Assembly: GCF_038396675.1 (NCBI RefSeq)
Contig: NC_088921.1
Span: 42,104,001-42,168,000, forward strand
DNA from: Hydra vulgaris
Lineage: Eukaryota > Cnidaria > Hydrozoa > Anthoathecata > Hydridae
Reading direction: 5' to 3'
Length of the DNA: 64,000 nt
Part shown: positions 10,962-52,455 of the stretch, piece by piece
Numbering within the stretch: position 1 is the first letter of the stretch
How the letters are laid out: every line of letters starts with the position of its first letter
The notes under the pieces: model-generated
Databases searched by the model: none
What the model was told of the DNA's origin: nothing
The model's input: only the letters and a program-made list of their open reading frames with translations
Made by a program: the position numbers and the translations under genes

Positions 10962-11163
10962 ATGGATAATGAATTAAATTCACCATCTGAATTGGGAGAG
11001 AGTATTAGTTATCCATCAACTGAAGAGAAGTTTATATTTTTTTACAATTTTAATGGTTATCAAAATAAATTGATGGTTAATGTAAAAATACCTTTAAAAT
11101 CTGTTTACGAATTTGGATATCGTATTATTGAATCCCATTCTATACCCTGTTATTTAGAAGAAG
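10962..11163 (+). CDS. FERRY3: C12orf4/FERRY3 homolog, exon 1 (residues 1-67)
   Basis: First coding exon of a protein of the C12orf4/DUF2362 family. In mammals this is subunit 3 of FERRY, a Rab5 effector complex that links mRNA and ribosomes to early endosomes. An in-frame TGA (10956) directly precedes the ATG, fixing the start. The segment FIFFYNFNGYQNKLMVNVKI then SHSIPCYLEE aligns with the family's N-terminal region by recollection. The exon ends at a GTAAAG donor in phase 1 and joins exon 2 at 32565 in frame, giving ...CYLEEELIQSLDLF. The open frame continuing to 11372 is intron read-through into a hairpin, not coding. Intron 1 is 21.4 kb. Confidence 0.8.
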
Positions 11164-11256
11164 GTAAAGGTTTTGTAAATTACTATTTGTTTTGGTTTAT
11201 TAAAAATTTAAGTATTAAAAATTTAATCAAAAACTCTAAATTTTTTTTTACCCTAA

Positions 11257-11400
11257 ATGATAAAAATGAGTTTGTAAATAAGGTCAGTTGTTGTATCTGG
11301 ACCATGATTTTACAATGTGAGCATGAGGTTGAGGCTCACATTGTAAAATCATGGTCCAAATACAACAACTGACCTTATTTACAAACTTATTTTTATCACT
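11257..11400. repeat. Near-perfect inverted repeat, ~65-bp arms, 11-bp loop
   Basis: The segment from 11257 to 11322 is repeated inverted at 11334-11400 with about three differences. The loop is ATGAGGTTGAG. It starts 94 bases inside intron 1 of FERRY3, so the pre-mRNA would fold into a long hairpin. It may be a palindromic duplication or a small foldback element. Confidence 0.85.
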
Positions 11401-11975
11401 TAAAAAAAATTGATGGCTCTGGAGCAATCAACAGGTTATTTTACCATCTAAAAGATTTTTCATTTATAAAATATGCAAGCCTAAATTATATAATAATAAA
11501 ATTTAATGTTTTTAAATATTTCTAATTAAGGAAAAAGAAAAGAAAAGACTTTTAGTCCAGTTACCCCATGTAATTAAGGCATCTGGATTATGAGGGTCTC
11601 TGTTTCACACAAACTGTTGTTATTTGAGTTAAAGTAAATAGGCATATTGGCAAACAAACAACAAGTTGTTTAAACCATACAGAAGTCGAGTTATGACTGA
11701 TGTATGAGAACTCCTACACAATGTTTTGGAATATGAGAAATTAAATAGAAATACAAATTTTTTTGCCAATCTGGTTTTTTATGTGTCACAGCAAAACAAG
11801 ATTATCATATTTTAAAGTCATTTCAGGTTTTCCATCAAAATTTATCTTTGTTTTTTCCTAAAACTTCAAAGAAAGCCTTATCATTCTTAGCGTCTTTGAT
11901 GGCTTCTTCCAAATGTTTAAAGTAAAATATTAGAATTTCAACATGAATTATCTCTGATTTTGATGAAATTTGTTG
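11401..11975. other. Intronic AT-rich sequence, nothing recognised
   Basis: No gene or clear repeat is visible between the hairpin and the hAT target duplication. Confidence 0.5.
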
Positions 11976-11983
11976 GCTTAGTT

Positions 11984-14965
11984 CAGTGGTTGGCTAACTT
12001 TTTAGCAAAAGAGCTAAATATGAGCATTGCAACAATTAAAAAAAAAAAAAAGGGAGCCAAATCTGATTGTTAAGTAAACTTTTATTACACACTTCTATTA
12101 CATAAATTTCATTCTTAAAAATATTTATTAATGCGAACAATGTGCTTGCATTTTTATCATTGACAAATGCTAAAGTTGGTCTGCTGTTTTTAAATTCCTG
12201 AAACCTGCTGAGAAATGCTTCCCTCATTTAAAATTATTGTTTTAAAATAGTGTTTATCAATAGGGGAATTATTTTCTTGACAATGCTTCAGCAGGCTTGG
12301 AAAGTGAAACAATGTTTCCTTTTCAAAATCCTGGACAAAAATGGATAATTTGTTTTCGAATGTTATTACTTCTTCTAACATTGAAAAAATTAAGTTTCCT
12401 TTTCCTTGTAGTTTACGATTAAGCTGATTTAGATGAGACATAACGTCTACCATGAATTAAAAGTTTTGGATCCACTGTTTGTCTGTTAGTTCTGGAAATT
12501 GAATGCCCTTCTCAAGGAGAAATGCTTTAATTTCCAGAAAAAAAAACGCGAAATGTTTTAAAACGTTCCTTCTTGATAACCAATGTGTCTTTGTCATGAA
12601 GCAGAAGATCGGCATATTCATTTTCCATCTCAAATAAAAATTCTTTGAATTGGCGATGATTAAGAGCTTTGGCTAAAATTAAAATGGATTTAATAATTGT
12701 AATCACTAATTCCATAACTTTACAAATTTCATCCAAAAATGTTTGCGCACAATGCGCTTCTTGGTGAATGATACAATGGTAAACTAGTATCTCATGATTT
12801 ATTTTTTCTTTTAAAATAGCAACAAACCCTTTTCTTATGCCAGTCATACTTTTGGCCCCATCTGTCGAAATTGACACAATTTTATTGAGGGGAATATGAT
12901 GTTCATTCATACACTTAATTACAGCATTTGAGATGTCTTCTCTACATGTCTGACCATTGAGTAGCAATAATCCTAAAAGTTCTTCTTTAGGGCCCGAATG
13001 AGATATAAATCTTAAAAAAAGTGAAACTTGCGCTGTATCATTTATGTCACAAAACTCGTCAACTGCTATTGACAAAGCTGAAATCAATTTCAGATCTTCG
13101 ATATGCTGGGTGGTTATATTCTAACATATTTTAAATGTTCTATCTTTAATGGTTTTGGCAGACAATGGTACCACTTTAATTTTTTCAGAATATCTGCTTT
13201 GTTCTTAAATTTTCAAAATAGCTCTTCAGATGCATTTATAAAACAATTTTTTATGTATTCGCCATCTGTGTACAGTCTCTCTTAGCAATCTCATGGCTAA
13301 AAACAAAACTTTCCATATTAATATTGTCAGAAGATTGCATCCAGTTATTCAACACAGAAGTTGACAACTTTTGACTCTTCTAAAGTTCCTCAATTACTTT
13401 CTTCCTTGCATCACCGGTAGGGTATTTAGTGCTGCATGACACATGCTTTCTTGTAAAGTGTCTCTCTAAATTTGACTTCTTGTTATGCGCGAATTTCTCC
13501 TTACAAATAAAACATGTCGGAAGTCCATTAAAGTTTTGAATAAACGCAAAATTCTTGGTCCACTCAACTTTAAAGTCGCGGTTTTCATCTTCAGTTTTTC
13601 TTTGCTTTTTTTTTGGTAGCCATGTTAATTGGGGTGTCTATTAAAATAATATTATTTTGTTTACAAAATAATATTGCTTAAAATCACACAGTTATTTATA
13701 ACAGAAAAACTGTAAAAATGTACATTCAAGAAGAAAATTGAAATTGTAATGTGGTGTTTAACAATAAGTAGCAATGGTTATAGAAAAAATGTTTGAAATA
13801 TATTTGCGGGTAAATATCCAAATAAGTGTATTCTATGTAAGACGAACTATTCATTTAAAAAAAAAAAAAATAACAGAAGGTTGTATTCAAAGTTCACATA
13901 AGAAAAGGACAAAAGTTGTTCAGTTTTTAACAAAAGACATGGAATTTATTGTGTTACATTGAAGAATATCGCAGCTTCATTGATGAAGTGCAATATTTCG
14001 ATGTATCCTACAGTTGCAAATTTTTATGGAATTTCCCTCCATTTCTATTAAAATTTATTATAATAAATTTAGAAATTGCAAATCCAGTAATAAAGATTTT
14101 AAATTCTAACTATTTGTGACTTTATTTAAAATAAAATCATAGGATTACTGTGATTTTATAAATAATGCTTACTTTTAATATTCATCACACATAAAATGAA
14201 AAATGTGCATAAAACCCGCAAGATATTAGTTCAATTTTCTACAAATCAATATTATATCAAAAGATTATTGTCAATAAAGCTTTAAGTATTTATGATAACC
14301 ATTTCAGAAAAATATTGTCTAATAAGTGATAATTGTTTTGACAAATATTTTTTTTTAATTTTATAAAAAAGTTTCCACAGCGACCTATGATATCTCTATC
14401 CCTTTTTAACTAATTTATTGACATTTTTTATTTTAACAGTATACATAAGGCAATTGTACGTGCCTATGTCAAGACGTATGTATACTTGAAAATGAAAGAG
14501 CCCTGTATATAGCAGGTGTAATAAAATTGTACAAAATACCTGTAAGATGTACAGCTAGATTTAAAAATACAACAACTTTTTAATAAGAAAGGACAATGGT
14601 AGACATGGTAAATATGACAAAACTGTTCACACTGCAAATGCTGGTCTGCTTAAGGTACCTTTATATCACACAGGAGTATTCCGAAAACATACGAACAATT
14701 TCAGCCAGTAGCTCGTACATGGTTTGTGTTTACGTTTACAAAAACTAATAAAATTAAACTCAATGTTTTTTCCGTATTTTTACAACATAATGTCCTCAAT
14801 TTATAGAAGAATTTTAATTCATCAAAATAAGATGTAACTTTTTTCTTACCAAGTTTTTTTTAAATGAAAATATGATTACGCTTTCCGTGGATATTTGTGC
14901 GGGAGCTGCACTTAAGGAGCCAAAGAGCTGCATGCGGCTCCAGAGCTGCACTTTGCCGACCACTG
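11984..14965. mobile_element. hAT transposon, 2982 bp, perfect 8-bp TSD GCTTAGTT
   Basis: The left end CAGTGGTTGGC and the right end (inward CAGTGGTCGGC) are typical hAT termini. GCTTAGTT occurs immediately outside both ends (11976-11983 and 14966-14973), the 8-bp duplication expected of hAT insertion. The transposase gene is on the minus strand at 12010-13623. The remainder (13624-14880) is AT-rich with no recognisable gene. Sequences near the right end repeat GAGCTGCA/GCTGCATGCGGCTC motifs, possible transposase sub-terminal sites. Confidence 0.9.
12010..13623 (-). pseudogene. hAT transposase (GTF2IRD2/ZBED-like), decayed
   Basis: The start ATG is at 13623. A BED-like zinc finger follows a frameshift in an A9 run (CFICKEKFAHNKK, then RHFTRKH, near 13440-13510). 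The best-kept block, 12527-13087, has the hAT catalytic-core text SISTDGAKSMTGIRKGFVA and CIIHQEAHCAQTF. C-terminal pieces at 12190-12453 and 12036-12227 end with MREAFLSRFQEF. Several stops and frame changes make it non-functional. Related domesticated proteins exist in vertebrates (GTF2IRD2, ZBED, SCAND3 types). Confidence 0.8.
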
Positions 14966-15039
14966 GCTTAGTTAATATAAATAAGAAAAACAAAAACTGA
15001 ATATTTCACTTTTTTTTTTTTGCATCTGTTTGATGCCTA

Positions 15040-17258
15040 GGTCATACATCTCAGATTTTGCTGATTTTTATACAGTTGAGAGTGCTTAGTAGATTAAAAA
15101 TTCCGTGAAAATCTTTTTATTTCAGGATCATCTCCAAGATGATCCTAAAATATGACCATTTTACTTATTTTAGCAGGTATTGGCCTGGCCCCTCGTGTCC
15201 CCTCAGAATTGCAATATTTATTGAGAAGTTTCAAACCACATAACTTTAAAAAAATGCTGATTATTTTTTGACTAAAAATTTGTAAATGATTATTTTTGGG
15301 TGTGAGGAATCCAATAAAATGATCAAAAGTGTAAAAAATTACTATTAAGTACTGTAATTATAAATTTAAACAATTTTTATGTTTTGATGAACATGGATGT
15401 TAAAATTGTATCCAGGGCCTAAGATAGAGGAGGGGATTAGGACATGTGTCCTATATTTTTGTAGTAGAACTGTGCAATAGATTTTTTACTACCTTCCAGA
15501 CAAACTGGAGCTCTGAAACTTTCAGCATTTGTGTAGTCCTAATAAATGTTTGTTAAAATTGTTACCAGGGTAGATGACCAGAGGACCCATGGAGCTGGTG
15601 CACCGAGAGCCATGTCCCACTTATTTTCTTAAAAAAATTTTTTTTTCCATTTTTAACAAAATAAAAATAATTTTAATTTGTTAAAATTTTTTTTTGGCTT
15701 ATACTTCTATTTGGTTTTTGGTCATTCAATATTCAGTGATGATTTTGTTTTAAGAGGGTACAGTAAATTCTGGTTAACACTAAGCTCCAAGAGACCAAGG
15801 AAAACAATTTGTCTAAACAAATGTTCTACTAATGCAAAGTAAAACAATTGTTATTGCTATTAAGGGACTATAGAAAACAGTTCGAGTTAACCGGTGTTTA
15901 AATTATTAGGATTCAGCTGTACATATTAATATTAACATTTTAGAATTAGAAAATATTAATTGAAATAATTGATTTTAAAAGGTGATAAATTTCTTTTTTA
16001 TTGATGTATTTTTTTATGATTTATTTTTATTGAATGTTATGACAGGATGTTTTTTTTTTAATTGTTAATTTTAGTTAATTTAATAACTTGCTGTTAACAT
16101 TTTAATTCAAAAAGTTTTAAATTATACAATGTAAAATTCAGCTAAAATCATTATTTTAGATAGATGACTGTTTTTAATCCATATAAAATCAAAATTCTTA
16201 TAAACGTATGAATTAATTTTTTTATTTCTTAAGACATTAAGATCATTGAATATAGAATGATCAAAAACCAAATGAAACAAGTATAAACCAAAATAATTTT
16301 TGAAAACAATATTTTCAAAGTTATCTTTACTTTGTTAAAAATAAAAAAATCTAATTTTTTTTGCAAAAAATAAATGGGACATGGCCCCGGGTGCCCCAGC
16401 CCCATGGAACCATGTTTTGAAAACAGTTTTAACACATGTTCATTAGGACTACACAAATGCTGAAAGTTTCAGGGCTCCAGTTTGTTGGTAAGGTAATGAA
16501 AAATCTATTGCAAGATTCTACTACAAAAAGTGGGGCACATGCCCTAGCCCTCTTTCCTAGTGTTTTGGGCCCTGGATACAATTTAAACATGCATGTTCAT
16601 CAGTACTTCAGAAATGCTAAAAGTTTCAGAGCTCCAGCTAGTCTGGAAGGTAAAAAGTCAATATCAATATTCTGCTACAAAAAAGTGGGGACCATGCCCC
16701 ATTATCCATATATGGAAATCCATATACTTGTAGATCAAACTTCTTATATTTTCTGAAAGATCAATGAATATAGAATGATGTGTAGGTTTTTTTTTGATAT
16801 TAAGACTACATCAGTTTCTTGAGCATCCAAATCAAATTATACAAAAAATAAAACAAAAAACAGTCTATAAAAACAAAGTATACAAAAAATTACTTAAATT
16901 TATTTAAATTGATAATTACAAGTACTTAATAATAGTTTTTTTTATTTCTGATCATTTTATTGGATTCTTTACCCTAGAAGATAGTCAGATACAAATTATT
17001 AAGTAAAAAGACCAAAAATTGTGTGATCTAAAACTTCTAAATAATTGTTGTGATTCTGAGCGAACAAGAGGGGCCTGGCCAATATCTGCTAAAAGTAAAA
17101 TGGTCATATTTCAGGATCTTTTAGAGGGTAAAATTTTCAAGAAATTTATTTTTTACTACGTATTCTCAACTGTATAAAAATCAGCAAAATCTGATATATT
17201 TGCTGACATTTTAAACATTTTCTGGGTCAATTGACATGGAACTGCCCTAACTTATTTT
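15040..17258. repeat. Long foldback repeat, arms ~0.7 and ~1.0 kb
   Basis: The left arm (about 15040-15755) is found inverted at about 16228-17215, for example CAGATTTTGCTGATTTTTAT at both extremes and GGTATTGGCC / GGCCAATATC inside. The right arm is longer because a ~180-bp unit (ATGCTGAAAGTTTCAGGGCTCC) is present twice (near 16455 and 16615) but once on the left. The spacer 15756-16227 is AT-rich. There is no coding region. It is probably a foldback or MITE-type DNA element. Confidence 0.75.
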
Positions 17259-17454
17259 TCTTTTAACTAATTGCTGAAACATTTTTGATTACATTTTTAT
17301 AAATATTGATTAAATTTTTATAAACATTGTCAAATGACACCTGTTATGGTATAAAACAATAGCAGTTTCGTGTTTCTTGAACAAATAGCATATCATTCTT
17401 ATAATATAAAATTTATGCAATAAAATACAGTTACATCATTTCAATTGTATAGAA

Positions 17455-17860
17455 AAATTATTCCTTTGATATTTTGCCTGCATTAATCATACATTTTCTA
17501 AACTGAATTATTAGTTTCTATCAGCAATTGTAAAATTTCCTTTGCTACAACTCACTTGATAGAGGCTCCACCAAAAGCAGTCTTCTCGTGTAATGTTGTA
17601 AAAAATACCATTCTGCAGATACCTCATAATCTTGTTAATGGTAACATATGTTAGATATGTTTTATAATTTTATAATTTTTGTATTGTGAACCTGTGCCAT
17701 CAATGAACTGAGTTTGTATTGTGTTGCAGATGATCTGTGATGACACAAATACTTTTAGATGTTATCTAATTACTTTCCATAGAGTAAATAACAAAAGAAA
17801 GTGATGTTGCTTTACTTGTTCCAATCGAAATTTGGTGTTGTATCTTGAATTTAACTGTAA
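17455..17860 (-). pseudogene. Relic of the same transposase family as 28871-31460
   Basis: Minus-strand text such as ICVITDHLQHNTNSVH, FIDGTGSQYKNYK and HEKTAFGGAS lines up, in order, with the better copy at 28871-31460 (CVISDHLKHGTDAVH, FSDGAASQYKNYKN, HGKSPCDGVGG). Stops and substitutions are frequent. No terminal repeats were found for this fragment. Confidence 0.6.
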
Positions 17861-19224
17861 TTTCCATAAAATATTAAAATATGATTACATGGTAATTGTC
17901 ATTTTTATATGCTGCAAATTATTGCAGGTTTTTGACTATTGAGTGATGGTCTCTTATTTGATCTATTTGTTGACAAGCTTTTTAAATTAAATTATCCACT
18001 GGTAGAGAACTATATCATGTTTTTTGTTAACTTTTTGTCACTATTTTAATCTAGTTTTTTCAATGATGTGCTTATTAAGTAAAGTAATAACATGCTCTTT
18101 TAGTGTATTAGTACCAAGATAGTTATTGCAACTGCGCAGCGTGCAGTAAATTTTATTAAGACACAAAAAACTAATGTTAAGAGATCTTTATAGTCTAAAT
18201 AACTTGTATTTTTAGTGCTTTTATATCATGGTTTTTGTATTCTGAAATTTTAATGAACCGTAAGGAGTCACAATTGGAGGGGGGGGGGGGGAAGGGTGAA
18301 CATAAAACATAAACCCACAGTTGATGTATGTACACTCCAATGCAGCGATTCCTATTTTACTTAAATTGCAATTGAATTTTTAAATTGACTTAAATTTAGT
18401 AGACTGCACTGTGTCTACGGCCATTTCAGTCAATTATATAGTTGAAGCCGCAGTCTTTAACTATATCATCTAATAATATAATTATTAAATAAAAGTAATA
18501 GTATAATAGTTTTTTAACAACAAAAACGTAAACTTTGAAAAAAATATTATTCAACTCTGCACTGCGGATTTAACACTCATCACAGTTTTTGCATTAATAG
18601 TGATGTCTACAGCGTTAAATTAACTTGTTACTAACAGATTGATAAAAGTTATATATTTATCAAAAATTAAATATCTTTAAATGGTATTTATACATTTAGT
18701 CACTGTTAATTTCTACTATTTACATGGGATTATATGAGTGCAAAAAATAATATTAGATAGTAATTATTAAAATTTTTGTATTGAAGTTTATTACGAATGT
18801 ATTAAATTATAAAATGTGTTAAAATTTTTGTATTGAAATCTATTACTAAATTAAGTAAAAGCTTCTAAGAAAATTTAAAATATCATAACAATATAAAATA
18901 TTTTCAGAGAGGAATTATTAGAAAGGTTATGAGTTTTTTGCATAATTTTAGGGGGAAAAGGTCAGTAAAGTGTGAAGATTTGTTACTAGGGAGGTTGGGG
19001 GTAGGTGCAAAACTGTCAAAATTGCATAACAATTTATGTCGAACAATTTGTAAAATTCTTTTTTTTTAAAACTTTTTTGAAAAAGTATGAAAGTTTACTG
19101 TCATCCGAGGCTATTTGGATCTGAATTTGAGACATGTTTGATGTTTGTGGTTCTCTCCCATATCTATGTTAATGTAAAAAAACTTGTTGCTAATTCATAG
19201 GCTTAGGTATTAGTAATGATGTTT
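17861..19224. other. Intronic AT-rich sequence with a G13 run
   Basis: No gene is recognised. A run of 13 G (18279-18291) stands out in this AT-rich setting. Confidence 0.5.
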
Positions 19225-21015
19225 ATAGAGAAAAAAATGTCATCGATATTGTAAAAAAGAATGTCTGTTTTTTTTGGCAATTTCCTGTGATTTTTTGATG
19301 GCTTTATTGTAGAAACTATGGCACCAAAAGGTTTTTCCATCCTAACACTTACAATGCAATCAGGTTATAACTTTTTATCTTATTCTACTAGCACATACTC
19401 ATCAATGCTGATTTTTACCTCTTCTGTGTTGACCAAATCTGAACTTTTGTTTATGTTGTCATTAACAGATCATTTTCATTGCTATTACTACTTTTAATAG
19501 CATCATCTGCAACCAAATCAGTTCATTTTCACTATCTAAGCTGTCATTATTTTGTTCTGTAGTTAGATTGTTCTGTAGATTTGTTCTGTATTTTCAGCAA
19601 TTTTTTTGTTTTTTCCTCTTGGAGTAGCACTGATAGTTCCTGTAATTCTATTCTATTAGAATTTTATATCAGAAGATTGACCATATACTTTTTCCTGCTG
19701 TAACATTCAACTGTCTTCTCACACGCTTTGAAGTTGGAATATTAGCGCTTCTTGATCTTGTCAAAAAGTCAAGAAATGATTGATTGACATTCTCATTTGA
19801 TTTCCTTGGTGAAACAATCATTTTTGGAAACATTTTTAACGCTTCTTGTCAATTGCGTGGATATATCTCTGTCTTTCTAAAACCAGATATTATATTTTCT
19901 GCATAATTTGTTTGAATTGATTTATGAAGGTGACTTGATTGTTAGGGAAAGTGTCTTTGTTAAGCTTTCGTTGCACATTCCAGGACCCGCTTTCCATTTT
20001 AATGATATTTTTCTCCATAACATCTTTATTTGCCTGAAAAAGGCCACATCTAGTGGTTGGGTAAGATGTAGGGGTGCACTGATGCCTACTTAGTAAACAT
20101 TCATAGCAATTTGTACATTTTAAAAAATAAAAAGAAGAGGAATATATTGCAAAAAAAAGTTTTTTTTTACATTTCTTGATTTTAAACTTGTCTCTTTGTA
20201 TAGTTTAGATCTATAAGTCATATAATTGCCTTCCTAAATTATAAAAATACAGGGAGATCCTGATAAAAAAACAGTTCAAAAATTATTTAAAGGTTTAGTA
20301 TATATTATTTTTAGAGTGTCTATATATTATTATATTTAGGCTTATACATGCATTTTTGTTTATGAATGAATAATGCTTTCTCATACAATATAGAAACACA
20401 AAAATAAAAAAATTGATTTTTTAAAAAAAATTGGCATCGGTCAATGATTACCAAGACTGATGTCAATGCCAGTGCATTGGCTAAATGATCAATGCATCGG
20501 TACACCTCTAGTAAGATGTGTTGAATTTGGTGGTAACACAATAAAGCAAACATCATTGTCTTCACAAAATTTTAAAAGGTTGACATTAATGTGACAACTG
20601 AGATTATCGTTTATGATAACTTTTTGTTATGATTGCCTTTTTAGCCTTGGCATTAACAAAGCAATCTTGAGTTTCTTCAATTGATTTATTCTTGAACCAC
20701 CCACTTTTGGAGTGATTATACATTGTTTCAGGTGGGCCACCTTCTGTTTATGTGGTCTAAAGTGACTACTCCTTGTAGACTACATAAAGAGCCAGCAATT
20801 CTCCAGCTGCATTTCCACAGTAAATAAGCAAAATTGCCAATTTAGAACTATTGATAATTTTTTCCGGGTATTTTACTCCTTTTCAGGATAAGTTTTTTTT
20901 CCCAGCGTCTTCTGTTCTGCAGGTACATTTTCTGTTTCATTATCTAGATTATCAAAATATTCTGTCATTGTTTGTTGTGTTACAGCCCTGATCCTTTTGA
21001 GGTTTCCAGAAAATT
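19225..21015 (-). pseudogene. pogo/Tigger-like (DDE_1) transposase pseudogene, split by a MITE
   Basis: On the minus strand the text follows the DDE_1 domain of pogo/CENP-B-type transposases: NWQFCLFTVEMQLENCWL, GGPPETMYNHSKSGWF, KVIINDNLSCHINVNLLKFC and VLPPNSTHL. A 442-bp MITE interrupts it, and it resumes with DVAFFQANKDVMEKNI and a C-terminal tail to about 19225. Numerous stops and frameshifts show it is dead. The N-terminal DNA-binding part is not seen. Confidence 0.7.
20069..20510. mobile_element. hAT-type MITE, 442 bp, perfect 8-bp TSD GTAAGATG
   Basis: The ends are TAGGGGTGCACTGATGC and, inverted, TAGAGGTGTACCGATGC. GTAAGATG is directly duplicated at 20061-20068 and 20511-20518. The insertion falls inside the pogo-like pseudogene, whose reading resumes on the other side. 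The internal CATCGG/GATGCC motifs recall other hAT non-autonomous families. No coding frame. Confidence 0.85.
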
Positions 21016-21074
21016 TCACGGATAGCTGATGATGTCTTCTAAAAAAAGCTTTAGCTCATTTTACACCATGGAGA

Positions 21075-22055
21075 TTTTCATTGAAACATGGACTCCCCCC
21101 CCCCCTGCACGATTAGAAAGAAATGGTTTGATAATCTTAAAAACTTTCCTAGATACACTGTATGAGGCAACCTTATAATAGAGAACAGTATGCCAAATTC
21201 TTTCAAAAGCTTTAGGCATATCAAGAGCAATAGCCCTAGCTTTGCCGCATCCATTTAATGCACGATGAAGTCTTTCAGTCACAGCAGTTAGCAAGTCAGC
21301 GGTAGAATGATAAGACCAAAAACGGTTTTGATCGTATGACAATAAATTATTTAATGATGCTATTTTCCAGCAAGCAGGAAAAGATGCTATTTTCCAGCAA
21401 GCAGGAAAACAAGGTTTAGTCAAGCACATATTAAATACTTTAAATTGAAGAAAGTTCTGGAGAATGAGCTGTAGAAGAGTTTAATGGAGTAATGACTTTG
21501 GCAACAGAAGCTGGAGTGATTTGAATGTCTAAACAATGGGTTAACCTGTTTAACTGGAATGACAGGAAGTGCATGGCTATAAGATTCAAGAGTCTAATTA
21601 GAAAAAAGTTCTTTGCTAAATTTTGATTTATCCTTGGGAGAGGTAATAAGATCAGTCCCATGAATAAGAGGTGGAATATCAGACTTACCTTTATTAATGG
21701 GACTGTTGAAGATTTTCCAAAAGTCTCTAGAGCCTAACTTCTGAGATAAGATACAAGATTTAGTAAACTGGAAATAAAGAATCTCAGCATCAAACAACAC
21801 CTTTTTACATTGATTTTCTGGCATTAATAAATAGGCGTTTGCTGCCAAGAGTTGTTTTTTAAAGAACATGAAAATATGATTACGACTAGATATAGCAGCT
21901 GAACAAGAAGGTGAAAACCATGGAGTAGAGTAGATATAGCAGCTACGCAAGAAGATATTAAAGCTTCCATTTAAAATCCTAAAAGTTGCACCAAAACAAT
22001 TTTTCACTTTTAAAATTTTATAAATTGCACTGAAATATTTTTGCATCATCAAAAA
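21075..22055 (-). pseudogene. LINE (CR1/Jockey type) RT fragment
   Basis: The minus strand carries linker and RT text of the LINE family best seen at 58000-61065: KKLGSRDFWKIFNSPINKGK, then ACWKIAS, then AIALDMPKAFERIWHTV. A 30-base direct duplication repeats FPACWKIAS (21358-21418). Blocks between RT motifs are missing. The RT end stops near a C-rich run at 21095. Confidence 0.75.
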
Positions 22056-22900: not shown

Positions 22901-22904
22901 CAAC

Positions 22905-25334: not shown

Positions 25335-25336
<2 letters not shown>
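22905..25336 (+). pseudogene. LINE copy with internal deletion of the RT core
   Basis: 5' untranslated-like sequence (22905-23390) is followed by a short open frame (23397-23734; IDGVPVCTFGVHCQSHIWSP), the end of the endonuclease region (SPLGASDHSLISLKLLPHS, near 24035-24080) and an abrupt jump near 24373. The jump goes to the RT C-terminal half (FADDTTIYS, about 24455; thumb region to 25260). About 1 kb present in the 58000-61065 copy is missing here. The 3' end GCAGCCTTCTTGGAAGCAAAG runs into a (TA)n tract. Confidence 0.8.
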
Positions 25337-38969: not shown

Positions 38970-38971
38970 AC

Positions 38972-40222: not shown

Positions 40223-40224
40223 TT

Positions 40225-40242
40225 TGGAGGCACTGCCCGGAT
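40225..40242 (+). promoter_or_regulatory. Probable primer-binding site
   Basis: TGGAGGCACTGCCCGGAT starts two bases after the 5' LTR. It begins with TGG, the complement of a tRNA CCA end. The primer tRNA was not identified. Confidence 0.5.
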
Positions 40243-40379
40243 ACAAGTGGATTCTATCTCTGCTTAGGCCGATCAATTTACCTACGTATATAAAGATTAA
40301 CTTTTGATTATCTCGTTATTGTTACTCACGCCAAATTACTCGAACAGAGCCGTAGCTATATTGACTTTGATGTTTACTT

Positions 40380-41945
40380 ATGAGCCGTTTACGCTCAGGG
40401 AAAATTTGTCCATTTACTGAAACAACTCGTTGCAGTGATACAGGCAATAATTCTCACACCTCTCTTAACGACTCCTCCTCTGATTCTAGCGACTCCTTAA
40501 AACTGTTAGACACCAACCCGTTTAAAACCGAAACCAGTCGTTCTCCAACGAATTCTGAAGTGAAGAATAGCATGTCACTTTTAGAACGTTTGGCATTAAA
40601 ACCGAGCCAAGAACTACATCCGAAAGTTTTCAGGGGTACAGAAGTGGAAGACATTACTGAATGGTTAGCCTGCTTTCGGCGTATTGCGTTGAACAATCAA
40701 TGGACAGAGGAAAGGAAATTACTAGCATTTCCACTTTATTTAGAAGGCAGCGCTCTAGTTTATTATGAGACACTTCCCGCACTTGCTAGAAACGATTACC
40801 ACGAACTCCAAGAGAAATTCTGGCAACATTACGATAATGCAAATATTGCATGGAACCGGAAAATGGAACTGTTTAGCTTGTCATAGGATACCGATCTCAC
40901 CTCCTACACCAACACCCTCGATAAACTTAGTCAGCAGTTAGGCATCGATGACGAGACAAAGTTAAACCCATTCATTAAAGGACTAAAACCCCACCTGCGG
41001 GATGCTCTTAAATTAAAGCAACCGTCTGATTATCAAGCCGCAGTAGCTTTTGCTAAGCTCTAAGACTCAATCGGATCGGATTCAGTTATATCTCGATTGG
41101 AAGCCAAGCTAGATGCACTTCTTAATCTACCAAAGCAAACAGTTGTGGCTTCTACCTACCGCGAACACCCAAACTTAAATCAGCGTATTGGTGAGCTACA
41201 GTCAGAAATAGACTCATTAAGGCGGAACAATAACCGTCTTGCCCAGCACGAAAGATTTCGTCCAGCTGGACGCAACTTACGTACCAGTGATGGGCAAGTA
41301 ATATGTAACCGATGCCTAAAGGTAGGACACACCCAAAGGTCGTGCTCTGACCAAACCTTCCGATTATCCGGGAAAAATCATTATCAACCTATATCGCCGC
41401 AACCTAACCGCTGGAACCATGATACACAAAACTCGACTTCATTTCGCAATACTCCTTCCCCGAATAGACAATTTCGAAATAATGAACCAAGAAACAGTCC
41501 GCAGTCGAATAGCCAAATTCCCCAGCGACACACCAACACACTCAAATTGGATCCAGAAGAGGACCCTGGTTCCGAAATCTGGGGTAAAGTATTCAAATTT
41601 AAAGTACTTATTCTTATGGACACAGGTGCTAGATGTAGTATATTGGACGAAACCATCTTCGAAAACATTAAGAATCAAGTTGCCAAACCGCTACCCTACT
41701 ATGGCACTCTGAGAACAGCTAATGGAGCGCCACTTCATGTCCTAGGAAAAACCTTATGCCCCATTAATATTGGAGGTAATATCTTTGAGCATGAAATGCT
41801 AATTGCTAAAGACTTAACCCATCCAGTAATTTTAGGGTATGACTTCATGAGCCAATTTAATGTCAGATTAGACTGTGGGAATCATCTGGTTACATTTGAA
41901 GGTAAATTTGTTATAAATATGATCAGTAAACCTATCAATGATTAA
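40380..41945 (+). pseudogene. gag and protease region of the LTR element
   Basis: Starts at ATG 40380. A retrotransposon-gag domain (ITEWLACFRRIALNNQWTEE, near 40660) is followed by in-frame stops at about 40884 and 41061. A second open segment from 41097 has a CCHC zinc knuckle (CNRCLKVGHTQRSC, 41304-41345) and an aspartic protease with the DTGA active site (41619-41630). It ends with the ILGYDFM motif near 41836. The product would package RNA and cleave the polyprotein. Confidence 0.85.
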
Positions 41946-44900
41946 TTTGCCACTGGAATAATTATTGATGATACGCCAATCCACCATAAAACACAAATTA
42001 ATGAACTTGTGGTTGAATATTCCCAAAACTTTATCGAGACGTAATTCGCTTATCGACCAACCCAATGTCAAGGCTGATAGCAAAACACAACGAGAGAATC
42101 TGACGCCGCAGTCCGATACGCCGCTTACACCAGATGAAGCTATAGTGTCCCAGCCGCTGCCCAATGACCGCTGCCAATACCCTATAGTCCCTGTAGGCCG
42201 CCTTGATAGAATCGATACACCCCAACCTAACTTGAATATTACGGATGAAGCGCTTTTTCAAGAGTTACCAAAAAAAACTACTGGAGAGTTTGTAATGACC
42301 ATGGTATGTGCCAAGAAGGAAATGAAAGCAATTCCCAAATGTGAAACTATCCTCACCATAGCACACGCCTTAAAAACTAAGGAGGACTGTCTTTTCGTGC
42401 CAGAGACAATTTTTTTTAAAGAACAAGGTGTCCATGTTTTTCCAACCATAACCCAATGGTGCGTCTAACCAAGTTAAGCATCATATGGTTAACCCCTCAC
42501 CGAAATATGTAACCATTGGTAAAAATCAAGTAATTGGGGTTATTATTCCATTACCCCCAAAATCTCTGACGAATACGGCGCTAGGTTGCCTGACGGGTTG
42601 ATAGATTTGTTGGAAGCAAAGACTAACGTCGCCGCGTTGGGTCCTGAAGAACGTCTCCAGCTATTGACCTTACTAAAGAATAACCAAGATGTTTTTGGTC
42701 AAGGTCTGCATGAAATTGGGCAGACTGATGTAATACAACACTGTATTGACTCTGGCGATTCTTAGCCGATTAGACAAAGAGCTTACCGTCTCGCTGAATC
42801 TCAAAAAAAATCCTTGGACAAGCACATTGAGGAGATGCTCGCAAATGATGTCATTGAACCAAGTGTCAGTCCCTGGTCCAGTCCGGTAGTCATGGTACCG
42901 AAGAAAGACGGAACTTTCAGAGTATGTATTGACTATCGTAAGCTAAATAACGTTACAAAGAAGGATACCTATCCACTCCCCCGAATAGATGAAAGTCTCG
43001 ACATGTTACATGGTGCAAAATATTTTTCTTCGTTGGATCTTTTAAGCGGATATTATCAGGTACAGCTCGACAACAAATCTAAAGAGAAAACCGCGTTTAT
43101 CTCGCACAAAGGATTGTATCAGTTTAAAGTTCTTCCCTTTGGTCTGTCTAATGCACCTTCAACGTTTCAACGGATGATGAATTACGTACTTCGTGACCAT
43201 CTATACAAAAATAGCATGCTCTATTTAGATGATATCTTGATATACTCAAAAACGTATAAAGAGCACCTCGAACATATAAATATGATAATTGAAGCTATAA
43301 GACAAGCAGGGTTAAAATTAAGCATACTGAAATGTACCTTCTGTACAAGCGAAGTAAAATTTTTAGGACATATTATTAATGCCGATGGTATCAAACCGGA
43401 CCCAGAAAATATCAAAGCAACAAAAGATTACCCGGTACCCAAAAATATAAAAGATGTAAGAGCATTCATTGGTTTGTGTAGTTACTTTAGAAGATTTATT
43501 AAAGGATTTTCGAACATTGCTTTGCCGTTAAATAATCTATTAAAAAAGGATGCCGGTTTCGAATGGCAGATCGAGCAGCAAAACAGCTTTGAACTCCTCA
43601 AACAATCCCTTACAACGTCACCCATTTTGGTTTTCCCCAACTTTAACAAACCGTTCATTATATACTCAGATGCAAGTGGCAAAGCGTTAGGGTATGTCTT
43701 ATCCCAATATCAAGGAGACCTTGAAAAGGTTATCCTCTATGGTGGACGGAATTTCACAAGCACTGAAAGTAAATATTCCACAACCGAACGCGAGGCTTTA
43801 GCTGTAGTTGTTGCGATACAGAAATGTAGACCTTATGTTTACGGACAAAAATTTAAAATAGTAACCGATCATAATTCATTAAAATGGTTAATGTCAATCA
43901 AAGATCCGACGGGTCGCTTAGCAAGATGGAGTTTGATACTACAAAGTTATAACTTTGAAATAGCGTACAGGTCAGGAAAAATACATGGGAACGCAGATGG
44001 GCTGTCAAGACGCAGCTACAACACAGTCGCAACAATGACAGTGCCAGGGAAATCTATTGACCATTTGGTAAAAGAACAACGAAACGATCCCTATTACGCC
44101 CGCCTAGTCACATATCTAACCAAGAGAGAACTACCAGACGACTTAAAAGAGGCGAAGAAGGTATTAGCAATGGAAGGTAGTTACCACTTAGATGAGAATG
44201 GGTTGCTATTCCATCATGAATCAAAAGTTTCGAGGAATCTCACCCAGTTGGTTGTACCGCTGTCCTTAAGATCAGAATTGATAACCTGGGCTCACGATGA
44301 ACCGTGCGGAGGCCACTTTGGAGTAACAAAGACGTTTGAAAAAATTAGGCGCAACTACTTTTGGGTAGGGATGTACAATGAAATACAAACTTGGGCCAAG
44401 TCCTGTATAACGTGTGCCCAACGAAAACGAAATCCAGCTCCTAGTAAAGCACCCTTATTACCAATTCCCGTTGAAGGCCCATGGGATATCATTGCTGCTG
44501 ATTGCCTGGGACCATTCCCGCCATCATTAAAAGGAAACCGCTATATAGTTGTTTTTGGTTGTTTATTCACAAAATATGTGGAGGTTTTTGCAGTACCCAC
44601 CATCGCGGCAACATCAATAGCAGAGTTATTCGTAAACAACATTGTGTTTAGACATGGAGCACCAAGACGATTTCTAACAGATAGAGGTAGCAATTTTACT
44701 AGCAAGTTGATAAAAGAGGTATGTGACATACTAAATGTAAAGAAGTCGTTTACAACGGCCTATCACCCTCAAACCGACGGGTTTGTGGAACGTATTAATG
44801 GAGTTTTGGCTCAGAATCTTTCGATGTATGTGGCCTCTAACCAATGAGATGGGGATGTTCACCTTCCCGCCGCAGTATATGCGTATAACACTAGTATCTC

Positions 44901-45272
44901 TGCTAGCACTGGAGAAACACCCTTTAGGTTGACATATGGCAGGGACGCTCTGCAACCCCATGATACTACTTTATTGCCGAGAAATGACCCCACAGATAAC
45001 ACTGAGTTACTTGTTCAACGACTCATATCTGACCTACGATTGTCACGTAACCTTGCCAAAGAAAATATCCAGAAAGCTCAGACCAAGATGAAGTTACACT
45101 ATGATCAAACGGCTAAAGAGTACCCATTTCAAGTAGGACATAAAGTGTGGATATATACACCGATTACGAAGAAAGGCTTAGTGAAAAAACTCACGAGCTT
45201 CTGGCACGGTCCGTTTTGTTTAATCGAAAAAAATGTCTCCTGTAACGTTCAAGGTAGAAAATATGAACAATA
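41946..45272 (+). pseudogene. pol: reverse transcriptase, RNase H, integrase
   Basis: A linker region (41946-42813) has several stops, one (TAG, near 42764) just before the conserved PIRQRAYR segment. From 42814 one frame holds RT (first Asp in FSSLDLLSGYYQV; YLDD at residues 137-140), RNase H (SDAS, REALA, TDHN) and integrase. Integrase has the HHCC finger (His494, His501, Cys531, Cys534) and Asp563, Asp623, Glu659. A TGA at 44845 splits integrase; its C-terminal part runs 44929-45225, where an A-run shifts the frame. Confidence 0.92.
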
Positions 45273-45685
45273 AAGAACTTACAACTCCAGTTCACGTGTC
45301 TCGCCTCAAACAATGGTTTGGTTTGGAAGAAAAACCCACAACGGAAATAACTTTAGACATTGAAGTTCTAAATGAGGCAACAGAGACAAGTGATGAATTT
45401 CGTTTTGAGGAAAGTAACCAGAAAGAAAAAAAACAAGTAACATTTGCAACCAATAAAAAAGAAATGGATAAAATACAACATAGCTTGCCGGAAAACGAAA
45501 TTGATGACTTAGATATATTTAAAATGGAGGAAATAATAAGTAAAAGGCAAAGGAAAGGTAGAACGCAATACCTAGTTAAATGGCAGGATTTTCCTTCGAC
45601 TCAAAATACGTGGGAACCAGAAGAAAACATCTTTGATAAACAAGTAGTGCAAAAATATTTAGAGAAGACAAAAAAAAGTCTACAT
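45233..45685 (+). pseudogene. Integrase C terminus with chromodomain
   Basis: After the frameshift, the frame has [12 protein letters not shown] (end of integrase) and then a chromodomain at about 45509-45668 ([20 protein letters not shown], then TWEPEENI). Chromodomains on integrases of chromoviruses steer insertion towards methylated histone tails. Confidence 0.85.
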
Positions 45686-45775
45686 GTTTCCGCAATAACA
45701 AGAGTATTTTCGATTAGACAACAAGATGACAAACAGACCAGAAATAGACTCTTGCCAATTTTCAATATAAACAGA

Positions 45776-46249
45776 TCATGGAATATAATGATTTCCATTA
45801 TTCTCTCATGCTTACTCGTAATACCTACATTGACCACAGGGTTATTTATCGGTGAAGTCTATGATTGTACAAAGGTGCAGCCTATCGGAGTTTATCAGCT
45901 AACTTCAATATTATCTTGTGCGCATAATATGCATTCCTTAAATGATTCTGTAAAGACATTCGTGGCAGATGTTTACGCCTACTGACCACAAACAACGACA
46001 GTAATCTTATATCATTGTTATGCCGAAAAGGTCACCCTCACATGCCAATCAAACTTCCTTAACCAAAAGTCAAGAGAGATAGATTCAAAAAAAGTAGCTG
46101 TAACGCAAGGAGAATGTCTCTCAGCCATGACCACCAAAATTTCACCATATGGAGCGCTGCAAGTAGCTGGCCCTAATGCATGGAGAACAGTAGTTTCAGA
46201 CGAATTCCATTGCTCATGGATGCGCACAAAAACAGCGGATAGAGACTAG
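45776..46249 (+). pseudogene. env-like glycoprotein segment, truncated
   Basis: In the same frame as the chromodomain, a hydrophobic leader-like stretch ([19 protein letters not shown]) is followed by a Cys-containing ectodomain-like segment with YDC, LSCAHN, LYHC and GEC motifs. One TGA (45983) interrupts it and a TAG ends it at 46247. Only about 155 residues remain before the minisatellite; no fusion or anchor region is seen. It resembles envelope proteins in layout only; the family is not identified. Confidence 0.45.
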
Positions 46250-46365
46250 AAGATTCCTTGTTAACGGTAGTAGCGGGAATTAGGGTTTCAATAATTCCCA
46301 GATGGAGATATGGAACGACTCCAACCACCATGAGTTGCATACAAAGTTGGTTAGATGATAGGTAG

Positions 46366-47255
46366 TTTATTCGAGTATTCTGCTGATTGTTCGAGATATT
46401 GTTGTTTTGCAGAGATTTTGCTTGTTCTGCCGTATATTCGAGACATTGTTGTTTGCAGTGGTTTATTGATTCTGCTGATTTTTCGAGATATTGTTGTTTG
46501 CAGAGATTTTAATTATTCTGCCGTTTATTCGAGATATTGTTGTTTGCAGTGATTTATTGATTCTGCTGATTTTTCGAGATGCTGTTGTTTGCAGAGATTT
46601 ACTGATTCTGCCGTTTATTCGAGATATTGTTGTTTGCAGTGGTTTATTGATTCTGCTGATTTTTCGAGATGCTGTTGTTTGTAGGGATTTACTGATTCTG
46701 CTGATTATTCGAGATATTGTTGTTTTGCAGGGATTTTACTTATTCTGCCGTTTATTCGAGATATTGTTGTTTTGCAGAGATTTTACTTATTCTGCCGTTT
46801 ATTCGAGATATTGTTGTTTACAGTAATTTATTGATTCTGCTGGTTTATTCGAGATATTGTTGTTTGCAGTGGTTTATTGATTCTGCTGATTTTTAGAGAT
46901 GCTGTTGTTTGCAGGGATTTACTGATTCTGCTGATTATTCGAGATATTGTTGTTTTGCGGGGATTTTACTTATTCTGCCGTTTATTCGAGATATTGTTGT
47001 TTACAGTAATTTATTGATTCTGCTGATTTTTCGAGATACTGTTGTCTGCAGAGATTTGCTGATTCTGCTGATTATTCGACATATTGTTGTTTTGCAGAGA
47101 TTTTACTTATTCTGCCGTTTATTCGAGATATTGTTGTTTGCAGTAATTTATTGATTCTGCTGATTAGTTGAGGTATTGTTGTTTGCAGATATTTATTGAT
47201 TCTACGGATTATTCGAGATTTTATTGTTTTACTGAGATTTTATAAGTTCTGATGT
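46366..47255. repeat. ~46-bp minisatellite, about 19 copies, within the LTR element
   Basis: Unit approximately TTCGAGATATTGTTGTTTGC followed by AG(A/T)GATTTATTGATTCTGC. Two or three variant types (45, 46, 47 bp) alternate, giving a higher-order pattern. Three open frames across it are a by-product. It occupies the space where the rest of env and the polypurine tract would be expected. Confidence 0.92.
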
Positions 47256-47307
47256 TTTGGTGATGCTTTTAAGTCCGAGGGCGGACTTTTTCTGTTTTGG
47301 TAAGTAA

Positions 47308-47737
47308 TGTTACGAAGGTCTCAAACAAAACTACTCAAGCGGAACACTGAAGTTCAACGAAGCGTATAGCGTTTGGATAAATATTTGTTTATCAACCAAA
47401 CTGTTTACTAACCGTAGCCGCGTCTAGCGTCTGCTGAAGATATAAAAACGCGAAGAAGACGAGATATGGCGGTGTATGTGAATATAGATATAGGGGATAT
47501 ACAAGGTCGGGGGTTGGAGCAGATAGTCAGTCAGAAGAGTTGGTGAAGCAATAACGGATTAATTAATTAAAAGACGAACTATTTAAGAGAATAATATAAA
47601 TTTTATTTATATATATATATTTGATTTTTTATATTTGGGTAAACGAGACGTAGTTGCTTATTTAAATAAAGTCACTTTATAAACACTTTGGAGTAAACCT
47701 ATAACGCATAACCACGAGTGAAAACTATTACGTAACA
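47308..47737 (+). repeat. 3' LTR, 430 bp
   Basis: Starts TGTTACGAAGG and ends ACGTAACA, followed by the duplicated GGCA. No canonical polypurine tract abuts its start; the nearest purine-rich bases are GAGGGCGGA near 47278. Confidence 0.95.
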
Positions 47738-48015
47738 GGCATATAGTTGAGTCATCAGCAAATAAAACCACTCTAGATGTAAGATTGTAGGAAAAATAAT
47801 ATAGATTAAAAACAATACACGACCAAGGATGGAACTTTTAGGTACCCCACAAGTTACTGGAAATGAAGAAGAGTGTTGGCCTTCAGTTATAATTTTAATA
47901 CTAATAATAATTTTAATCATCAAAATTTTTCCAGACCATCTGAAGTGAACTTATGGAGAAGACCAGCATGCTAGACTTTAAGACCTGAGATAAGTCATGA
48001 GCAAAAGCCCTGTAA
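47738..48015 (-). pseudogene. LINE RT portion, right half of the split copy
   Basis: Minus-strand text shows LFADDSTIC at the LTR boundary and, upstream, PTLFFISSNLWGT and YRAFAHDL-like RT text of the same LINE family. It continues the fragment at 38972-39794 across the LTR insertion. 48016-48500 holds nothing recognised. Confidence 0.7.
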
Positions 48016-48634
48016 ATATCAAGTCTATTTTTCTGATGAGTAAAAAGGGTACAAAAAGGAAAAAATAACAAAACTATTGCGTTTTTATTAGGGCCTGAAA
48101 AAAGTTCAATTGAGACTGAAATAGTTGAGAAAGATGTTATAGAAAATCCTAATTCTGAAGAGGAGGTACACCCTTTTTTTATAAGTCTGATTGCAAAACA
48201 GTTGCGGCATTTAATCCAGATATTAATACATAAAAAAAGTATATGAAATTACCTTTTAAATTTAAAAATGACTCTTAACTGAAGTTTTCTGTTTTCAATA
48301 AACTTTGATAATGATGATTTGTTGCAAGAAGTGAAGAAAGAAAAGAAGAAAGAAGCAAGAAGTTAAAAAAAGAATACATGAATATATTTCTCTTTACTAA
48401 TATTGTGAGTATAGATTGAAAATAAGCGATTTGTATTGAAACTCATGTGACAGGTATATTTCTGATCGGGCTGAAATAAATTTTACCTAAAAGCTAAAAC
48501 CCTAGGCTGCAAACATCAGTCCAGAATGATAGGACTTCCCATTTGAAAACCTTAAATGGGAAGTCTTGTCCCACCTGCAGTATTCACCAGACATTGCCCC
48601 CTCTGATTATGTTTTTTTCTGATTGATGACACAT

Positions 48635-51602
48635 TAGGGTGTTTCATTTCCGACAATTTTTTTAAAATGGTTACGTTACATGCATAACAGGGTAAATAAT
48701 GGGCCAAAAAAAAGTCTGTAAATTTTTCAAAGTTTTAAAATGTCATCTATCTTGAAAAAATAACGTTTTTAAACTTTTTTCAAGTTTAAATTTGAATAAC
48801 TTAAAAAATAATTAATTTTATGTTACGTTACTGGATGTATATATCAAAGGTTATTAGATGAACATTTGGTGAAATTTTCAGAAAAATTGGTTAATGTCTA
48901 AAGGTTGCCGTATTAAAATATAAAGCTACAAAACCTTTTATTTTTTTAAATCTTAAAAAATATATCATTAAAATTCAATAAGGCTATTTTTAGGATTAGG
49001 CTTTTTGTAAGAATAATAATTAATAAAGAAGATACTAGTAATATAAAAAATACTATAAAGTATTAATTAGTTATGATTTCGAATAGGATGGATTTTGCTT
49101 TCTGTGTTGTTCATCAACTTGCAAAATAAGTTATCGCTGTTCTTCATTTTGTGCACACTCGCAGAAATCATTTGCTACCTCTAATTGTTTAACAAAATTT
49201 TCTGTGGTTGGATAATCTTGGAAGAACTTCCACTCTTGTGGAATCATCTGGAGTCATTTCTGGTTGTTTATTATTCCTAATAAATAAAAAGAAGCCAAGA
49301 CCGTGGTCCAATTGAAAAATAAATAAGGGTTGAAGAATTTCATGTTGGAAATTTTGGTTTCCCAATTAAAAAAGTTTTTGGTCTTGGAATAGAAAAAAAG
49401 TCTCTTTGCTATTATTCTGGTAAATTCTGACAATTTTTCATTAAATAAAGATAAAATAACAAGCTCTTCTGTTGAATACCAAAGGTGACAGTTAAATGAC
49501 GAAATTATAGCGGTTGTGATATCTGAATCTTCTACTTGATACCAGTTTGTTGCAGCAAAAAATTTAAAGTCTGGAGCAAATATGGAAAATCCTCAAGCGA
49601 AGAAATTGCATTGAATAAAAAAGACATTTTTAAAATATATATAGAATGTGACATAAATCTTGCATTGTGAATTGCACTTGGTTTGTGAATTTTGAGTATT
49701 CTGTCCATTGATAGTTTTCCCCAAAGGTAGATAATAGTTAATTCAATTAACTCAAAATAATCTTCTCGCGGAAATATTTTCTCTTTGAGGCATTGGTAAG
49801 GCTATTTCAGAACTAAACTTGATTGATTAAATATTTTTGATTTGATGTCAGTAGGCCATTCAAAAAAATTAAAGTTTGAGTAATCAATATCAATTCTTGA
49901 AAATTCAAAAAAACGGAAATGTTTAAAAATGGGTTCATCTGGACTCTTGCTATCTCCTCGTAATGCGGTAAATGCATGTTTCATTATGATGATGGCGACA
50001 TGCTAGCCATAGAAGAGGTCTCTTTAACTCAATTTCAATTAAAGTTGCTGCTTCTTTTTTATTACCTGTGTTGCTTGCTGTTGTATCAAAGCATATACCA
50101 ACAATGTTTTCCAAAATATTCCAATCTTGCGCAAGTTTCACAGCTGTATCACATTGAATTTTACCTGTCGAACCTTTAATCAAAGGTACACCAATAAGTT
50201 TCGGCCTGCAAATATAAGTTAAGTGAGTTTCTTTGAAAACAAAAATAAAAAGTATACATAAGATTTATATAAATAAATAAGTACCCATTAAGAGATCCGC
50301 TAATAAGAACTGCTACACGTTCTTCATTATAAGCTATGTCTAAATCAAAAAACTTCGAATCCCGGTGCAAATGGCCTTTTTAGGTTTGTTTATCTACCAG
50401 TCAGCTTTAATGGACAGAACAGTATTCTCCCGTGCATATTGCCTTTGACGATGCACAGTTGATACTGACATGGACATATTATTAAGTTTGCCAGCACTTT
50501 TGCAGATGATAGCAGATTGAAATAGAAGCTGTTGGCGAACTGATAAACAGCATCAGTCTGCCACAGACGCTGTTACTTCTGAGAGCTTCTTTGCTGATAT
50601 TTACTAGATTTTTGATCTTTGGTTGACCTTTTCCAAAAAACCATGCTTAGTCTATCTTCTTAATGTTCTAAAATTTTTGAAACACCTAGATCGATGCTAC
50701 CTGTCATGTGATACTTTCTGCTACTCTTTTAATCCTCATAAAATGCCCAATCTTCTTTAAATTTTGGTCTATCTGATATTAATAACTTTTCATATGCATT
50801 TATTGCTGAAATGTTGCAAAGTTGCTCAAGTTCATTACAAAATCTGACAATTTTTTCTTTTCCAGGTTTAACATTTCGACTTGCTTGATCAAATTTTTTT
50901 ATTTTCATCTTTTCCTCCAACAATTTGGTAAGCAATAAAAGACAAGAGTTATCTGATCAAATTGGTACTCCATCTTGATTATTTTTTCTAAAGTTCATCG
51001 TTATAATAAAATATTTGTTTATCCAATAAACTAGTTTTAAAATTATTTTTAAAATTTCAATTTTGCTAACTGATATAACAGCCAACTTTTTAAAAATAAG
51101 TTTATGAAATTTATATACATAATATACATAAATATATACATAATTTACATACATACAGATGTTTATTTTGCTATTTAATCGCGCAACGATCTTAAGTGGT
51201 CAATTATGCTCAAAACTTAAATTTTGCATTTTATTTAAAGTATTAAGTTTTTTAAAGTATTTAAGGAATTTTTTAGCAAAAAAATATGTTAAAAAAATTA
51301 AACTTTATAATATGGCGACCTCTAGACATTAACCAATTTTTTTGAAAATTTGCCCAAATGTTCATCCAATAACCTTTATTACATACACTAAGTAACATAA
51401 CATGAAATTAATTATTTTTTTAAGTAATTTAAATTTAAAGTTAAAAAAAGGGTAAATAGCACTACTTTTTCATAACAGCAACTTCTAGATGATATTTTAA
51501 AATTTTGAAAAATTTACAGACTTTTTTTTGGCCCATTATTTAAATGGGCCAAAAAAAATAAATGGGCCATTTTTGAAAAATTGTCGGAAATGAAACACCC
51601 TA
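48635..51602. mobile_element. Unclassified DNA transposon, 2968 bp, 9-bp TSD ATGACACAT
   Basis: The ends are inverted copies starting TAGGGTGTTTCATTTCCGAC, with similarity continuing for roughly 300 bases. ATGACACAT is repeated exactly outside both ends (48626-48634 and 51603-51611). It carries a broken minus-strand gene. The insertion splits a mariner gene, so the boundaries are doubly supported. The long inverted repeats plus 9-bp duplication do not let me name the superfamily. Confidence 0.85.
49600..50935 (-). pseudogene. Putative transposase of the 9-bp-TSD element
   Basis: Minus-strand pieces contain KEKIVRFCNELEQLCN, VGICFDTTASNTG, LLWLACRHHH and later HKPSAIHNARFMSHSIYIL. I recall similar strings from many uncharacterised invertebrate proteins. 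Frame changes and stops are frequent. DDE residues cannot be assigned with confidence; the Asp of CFDTT is a candidate. Confidence 0.5.
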
Positions 51603-51760
51603 ATGACACATGGCCTGGTTGAGGAGCAATTTTCTTTTTATGACAATATCAAAAAATGAACCGATGATTATGTCTGCATGCTACCTAAAAGATGGGAGAA
51701 GGTCTTAGCTGTGGGAATTTTGAATCATCTGAGTCTTCTAAAAATATACTGTTGGTTTTT

Positions 51761-52244
51761 ATTAAACACTCATTTTCAATGCTCCCAATACATGACAGTA
51801 AAAAGCATAGAAGAATAACTTGTATATTTAAACCATGTTCTTTATTATTTGTTTTAAAGACAGAAGTTTTAAAGTTTAAATTTTAATACAGTTCAATATT
51901 AAAAGGGATTAAATTGATAATTGAAAAAATTAAAAAGAAAAAAAAATTGAATAAGTAAAAGCATATTAATATAGTCTAGTATTTATGTGTTTTTTTTTTT
52001 TTTTTTTAAGTATCTATGTGGTTTTTTTTTTTTAAATAACCTATTATTGTATAGCATATGTTTCATACTCTATTATATTTTAGTATGTGTTTTATTTAAT
52101 AAAAGTTTTTTAAACCAACTTTTTATTATTACAAAACCTTTGACTTAACAAAAAATTTCATATAAAAGTTTAAAATTAAAAACAAAATTTTTTAGTAAGG
52201 ATCTGAGTTTAAAAATTCTAATCATTAACCTTTTGTGTTTTTAG
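51761..52244. other. End of intron 3, AT-rich
   Basis: T- and A-runs (for example near 51990 and 52023) lead to the exon 4 acceptor TGTTTTTAG. Nothing else is recognised. Confidence 0.5.
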
Positions 52245-52455
52245 ATATTGGAGACGTTTTGGTCTAATGCTCTTTTAGAGCTAAAAGGGACCCAAAAGCA
52301 TGAATATAAGCACTGGGTGCAAACAGTTCATGATAACATTGTCAATGATAGACCATTGTCACGCACGCGAAGAATTTCTTCAGAAAGTTTAAATAATTTT
52401 GAATTACCTAATCAATCAGAAGTTCATATGGAAGAGAGTTTTACTATATATTTAG
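52245..52455 (+). CDS. FERRY3: C12orf4/FERRY3 homolog, exon 4 (residues 207-276)
   Basis: Enters in phase 0 after a TGTTTTTAG acceptor and leaves in phase 1 at G/GTTTTT. The text ILETFWSNALLELKGTQKHE then YKHWV and, at the end, MEESFTIYLG matches the family (WSNEL...QKQEYxxWV...ESFTIHLG). The remaining C-terminal half was not found before 64000, so intron 4 must be at least 11.5 kb or the gene is broken here. Confidence 0.85.

Follow-up and report, generated by a model that had tools for sequence, protein, structure and literature searches.

The 64,000-nucleotide stretch of Hydra vulgaris DNA analyzed here (the window) carries, as we hold with very high confidence, the first four of the eleven coding exons of an intact FERRY3 (C12orf4) gene, which likely encodes a conserved FERRY complex subunit; its introns have probably been lengthened by mobile-element insertions. 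The four exons, of 100 to 316 nt and dispersed over 41 kb, had been correctly recovered from the DNA letters alone, so that the locus may serve as a benchmark for the recovery of split genes.

Four coding exons in the window join into a single open frame

All four exons lie on the forward strand. Exon 1 (10962..11163) begins with the ATG at 10962 and encodes residues 1-67, which equal residues 1-67 of isoform X6 of the NCBI Hydra FERRY3 protein, plus the first base of codon 68; as the stop-to-stop frame starts at 10959, the second codon ahead of this ATG is a stop in the same frame. Exon 2 (32565..32880; residues 68-173, the codons at its ends being shared with the adjoining exons) and exon 4 (52245..52455; residues 207-276 and the first base of Gly277) both display 100% identity to X6, while exon 3 (35095..35194; residues 173-206) was located by tblastn to X6, the match stopping past residue 206 as a splice site would predict. 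GT follows each of the four exons and AG is found ahead of exons 2-4; the running phases are 1, 2, 0 and 1, and the joined exons form an open frame of 276 codons with an ATG start. The segments and phases proposed in the sequence-only reading were exact to the base, and its description of the four exons as intact holds, all of them being open in frame and identical to the database protein.

The small size of the segments, taken alone, would suit an origin as chance open frames that happen to join. Nevertheless, when segments of the same four lengths were drawn at random from the window and joined, 1 of 200,000 joins was open in frame, the product matches a Pfam family with an E value of 3.5e-43 and its 276 residues are identical to those of a database protein; we consider the chance reading refuted and its probability negligible. 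Segments filtered by the flanks required (ATG or splice sites) were open in the needed frame in 3 of 61 cases for the 202 nt length, 1 of 162 for 316 nt, 38 of 159 for 100 nt and 7 of 159 for 211 nt, and the positions listed for these segments include those of exons 1, 2 and 4. The donors past exons 3 and 4 are gttgtt and gttttt respectively, which we take to fit the usual consensus weakly.

The spliced product belongs to the FERRY3 family

The translated join was searched against protein databases and the DUF2362 profile, as the sequence-only reading had suggested, and matched both NCBI FERRY3 and Pfam Fy-3 (PF10154, formerly DUF2362; human FERRY3, C12orf4). The Fy-3 match of the 276-residue product reached 148.9 bits, far over the cut-off of 25.8, and spans profile positions 2-238 of 498. 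Moreover, the 276 joined residues coincide without a single difference with residues 1-276 of isoform X6 of the Hydra vulgaris protein that NCBI names "FERRY endosomal RAB5 effector complex subunit 3", and the assignment to a FERRY3/C12orf4-like gene of the DUF2362 family is thereby borne out. These comparisons support the identification of the spliced product as FERRY3/C12orf4, encoded by a single gene whose large introns contain mobile elements. The gene had also been called hidden, which it is not: Hydra FERRY3 is already annotated and its protein is in NCBI. Entries that NCBI labels "isoform X" are models made by computation, and the exon junctions proposed here are thus backed by a gene model obtained independently and by conservation of the protein.

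To look for homologues we used a 500-residue query in which the unseen half was written as X, with region 1-276 under comparison. Out of some 5.8 billion database proteins, 1,076 candidates were scored and five of them, X6 included, matched at E <= 0.001. In the profile search 7,992 candidates were scored, of which 699 matched at E <= 0.001; the best 120 of these 699 are chiefly from invertebrates where the species is named. Hydra vulgaris isoform X1 is 95% identical to the product across residues 1-276, and it shows 35-58% identity to the 118 family members that remain among the best 120 of the 699 matches once both Hydra entries are left out.

Fifty of these best 120 proteins were aligned. 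Within residues 1-276, 34 of the 35 columns that are highly conserved (in 90% or more of the 49 remaining rows) are kept in the Hydra product, and the part encoded in the window has, exon by exon, a mean identity of 32-40% to the 48 non-Hydra members of the alignment.

Eleven coding exons at one locus

When X6 was compared with the Hydra genome (911.5 Mb, 15 contigs), all 10 matches fell in order at one locus, C2:42114962-42194654, on the contig where the window occupies C2:42104001-42168000; locus counts from this search are lower bounds. The gene consists of 11 coding exons over 79.7 kb, 2% of which is coding, and exons 5-11 lie past the window end. With the window numbering continued downstream on the same strand, they occupy 64951-65035 (exon 5), 65144-65265 (exon 6), 80932-81087 (exon 7, a cassette of 156 nt), 89692-89894 (exon 8), 90163-90220 (exon 9), 90398-90465 (exon 10) and 90568-90657 (exon 11). 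Introns 1 to 10 measure 21,401, 2,214, 17,050, 12,495, 108, 15,666, 8,604, 268, 177 and 102 nt, in agreement with the two introns of 21.4 and 17.1 kb described earlier. The sequence-only reading was right in proposing a single gene, but its extent, given as 41 kb and four exons, was undercounted because the window ends before exon 5, which begins at the 951st base past that end; intron 4, of which 52456..64000 falls in the window, is thus cut by it.

Consistently, when full FERRY3 proteins were compared with the entire window by tblastn, no exon besides exons 1-4 emerged, and no Pfam family was detected in the three forward frames of 52456-62357 (stops written as X). The C-terminal half sits downstream, in exons 5-11. 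All 11 exons are open and together give a full protein of 536 residues when exon 7 is kept; isoform X6 (484 aa) equals this gene without exon 7, with no sequence difference. Isoform X1 (536 aa) agrees with the 11-exon product in length and order and differs from it by 17 substitutions; it probably comes from another Hydra strain or assembly.

The exons sit amid many insertions and two of the donors are weak, as would be expected if the segments were remnants of a decaying FERRY3 pseudogene split by transposons, with a working copy elsewhere. However, the 11 open exons join to a full protein, a single locus was found in the animal's own genome, the highly conserved positions of the part coded in the window are retained with one exception, and the NCBI protein is identical to the locus without exon 7. 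The pseudogene reading is largely refuted, and we regard it as very improbable.

Mobile elements in and around the introns

For an intact FERRY3 gene, the primary transcript would span about 80 kb and splicing would remove the introns together with their insertions, so that these would be tolerated. Intron 1 (11164..32564) contains LINE pieces, a DNA element bounded by long inverted ends (27937-28635 and 31585-32283) and, presumably, a hAT-like fragment; one LINE piece lies at 23242-25345, and 1,132 nt of it recur in intron 4, at 59937-61068, as an inverted copy with 98% identity. Intron 2 occupies 32881..35094, and intron 3 (35195..52244) holds AT microsatellites and an LTR element (39794-47737) whose repeats, 39794-40222 and 47307-47737, are 96.3% identical. 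This element encloses matches to protease, reverse transcriptase (RT), RNaseH, integrase and chromodomain. All mobile frames nearby had been described as broken, which does not apply to 42766-44847, a single open frame of 693 codons with the RT, RNaseH and integrase domains; the protease and chromodomain pieces are in other open stretches.

Repeat cover was measured against a library made of the gene region itself and 200 kb of sampled genome (15 kb of it masked as N), leaving out hits of less than 80 nt and AT-dinucleotide hits. Introns 1-4 are repeated over at least 29%, 27%, 20% and 36% of their length respectively, and all introns together over at least 25% (19,311 of 78,085 nt), while the cover of the 11 exons is 0%; as just 200 kb out of 911 Mb were sampled, the intron covers are lower bounds. 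The introns had been taken to be nearly all transposon, a claim that goes beyond the 20-29% or more recorded for introns 1-3; intron 3 becomes about half mobile once the whole LTR element is counted together with LINE pieces. When only the sampled stretches serve as library, introns 1-4 are covered over 5%, 0%, 3% and 15%, and 8 of the 20 sampled stretches given the same test showed 0-14%; the repeat figures fail to show that introns 1-4 contain more repeats than Hydra DNA in general.

It follows that the stretching of the introns by mobile-element insertions, probable as it is, is borne out in part only by the share of intron length that is repeated. The same figures, and the long AT microsatellites of intron 3, would also suit a gene as described here in which intron length had another cause, such as simple-repeat growth or ancient unique DNA, with mobile elements a minority. 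Against this stand the small size of the library, the LTR element and LINE pieces that make up about half of intron 3, and the share of mobile elements in the genome of the AEP Hydra, given as 65.3% (596 Mb) in PMC12220107; we judge this other origin of the intron length rather unlikely. Apart from its long introns the gene is unremarkable; it offers an example of a conserved gene of 80 kb, nearly all of it noncoding, with many insertions in its introns, which fits the mobile-element load published for Hydra.

Further domains were detected upstream of exon 1: THAP, HTH_Tnp_4 and DDE_Tnp_4, each in its own frame, within 3082-4794, and a YqaJ nuclease domain on the reverse strand at 5614-6093. 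Rfam gave no matches at gathering scores.

Predicted structure and the FERRY complex

The AlphaFold model of Hydra FERRY3 has a C-terminal macro-like fold, and such a fold is proposed for the family in PMC6500376. According to the model, exons 1-4 would encode the N-terminal half, in which a small beta-beta-alpha module is accompanied by long helices, and the downstream exons the macro-like domain. A sequence search of the PDB with the 276-residue query returned a single row, an amyloid-like-protein at E 0.065, which is unconvincing, and comparing the PDB with the Fy-3 family profile gave no matches up to E 10. By Foldseek the N-terminal module weakly resembles the SNF5/INI1 repeat (5l7a_D; probability 0.93, E 1.7, TM by target 0.65, rmsd 2.4, 62 columns). 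We do not claim kinship with SNF5/INI1, since the 50 matches listed for the X6 model include no SNF5 chain and the VIA rows were taken up by the macro domain.

The mammalian PPP1R21 is bound by FERRY3 and by TBCK, and it is proposed that the FERRY complex carries mRNAs and attaches to Rab5 on early endosomes (PMC11928052 and PMC12154601). By analogy with mammals, Hydra FERRY3 is predicted to be a subunit of an mRNA transport complex at endosomes; membership would entail assembly with TBCK, PPP1R21, CRYZL1 and GATD1 as well as Rab5 binding. A search for the backbone subunit PPP1R21 with the KLRAQ profile (PF10205) gave no matches in the Hydra genome, and none of the 14 control genomes matched either; our literature search retrieved nothing on the FERRY complex in connection with Hydra or with SNF5.

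Exon 7 and the FERRY3 isoforms

Exon 7 is in phase 1 at both ends and its skipping therefore preserves the frame; when it is left out, the product is exactly X6. Seven of its positions are conserved in 90% or more of the 49 rows aligned besides X6, and the segment is missing from none of these 49 rows, the lowest occupancy being 45 of 53 columns. The AlphaFold pTM falls from 0.65 for X1 to 0.48 for X6, whose model is without two helices that in X1 lie between strands 326-333 and 400-404, yet the X6 model still matches macro domains; the models thus leave the folding of X6 undecided.

Exon 7 is flanked by introns of 15.7 and 8.6 kb, and one could suppose that these, swollen by mobile elements, cause Hydra AEP to skip it, giving a second FERRY3 (X6) as a strain-specific variant born of intron growth. 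We find this proposal doubtful and quite unlikely; if true, X6 would have a macro domain without a segment of 52 residues that includes the seven highly conserved ones.

Mobile elements in and around the first introns of FERRY3

Intron 3 carries an LTR element with a chromodomain (39794-47737), which we take from its domain order to be of the Ty3/Gypsy type. Its LTRs are 96.3% identical, and the reverse transcriptase, RNaseH and integrase are encoded in a single open frame of 693 codons, the remaining pieces lying in separate open stretches. GC content is ~40% across 40001-46000, inside this element, against ~30% for the window, and a tandem array of ~19 copies of a 45-nt unit (46377-47229) stands directly ahead of the 3' LTR. 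Long AT microsatellites, located nearer the 5' end of the intron (35404-36929), form large inverted arms.

Two LINE copies in opposite orientations, one in intron 1 (23242-25345) and the other in intron 4 (57986-61068), share 98% identity across 1,132 nt, which argues that at least one of them is probably recent. Minus-strand pieces at 54762-57002, presumably hAT-like by their appearance, had no match in Pfam; a LINE 3' piece (~55321-56162) sits between them, an arrangement that probably represents a nested insertion.

Intron 1 also holds a DNA element (27901-32310) with inverted ends of ~700 nt each, 98.6% identical to each other over 735 columns, whose 3' boundary is ~255 nt upstream of exon 2; its three minus-strand frames (186-284 aa) matched no Pfam family at E 0.01. 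Upstream of exon 1, plus-strand THAP, HTH_Tnp_4 and DDE_Tnp_4 pieces and a minus-strand YqaJ nuclease piece, all within 2491-6093 and with split frames, resemble an ISL2EU-type DNA transposon.

Cassette exon and 5' flank of FERRY3

Exon 7 (genome contig C2:42184932-42185087, downstream of the window) is a frame-keeping cassette of 156 nt, with a 15.7-kb intron before it and an 8.6-kb intron after it; it is intact in this genome and missing from NCBI isoform X6.

Trans-splicing occurs in Hydra. Immediately 5' of the start codon (10900-10961) there are two AG sites, each preceded by T-rich sequence, and either could be a spliced-leader or 5' UTR acceptor.
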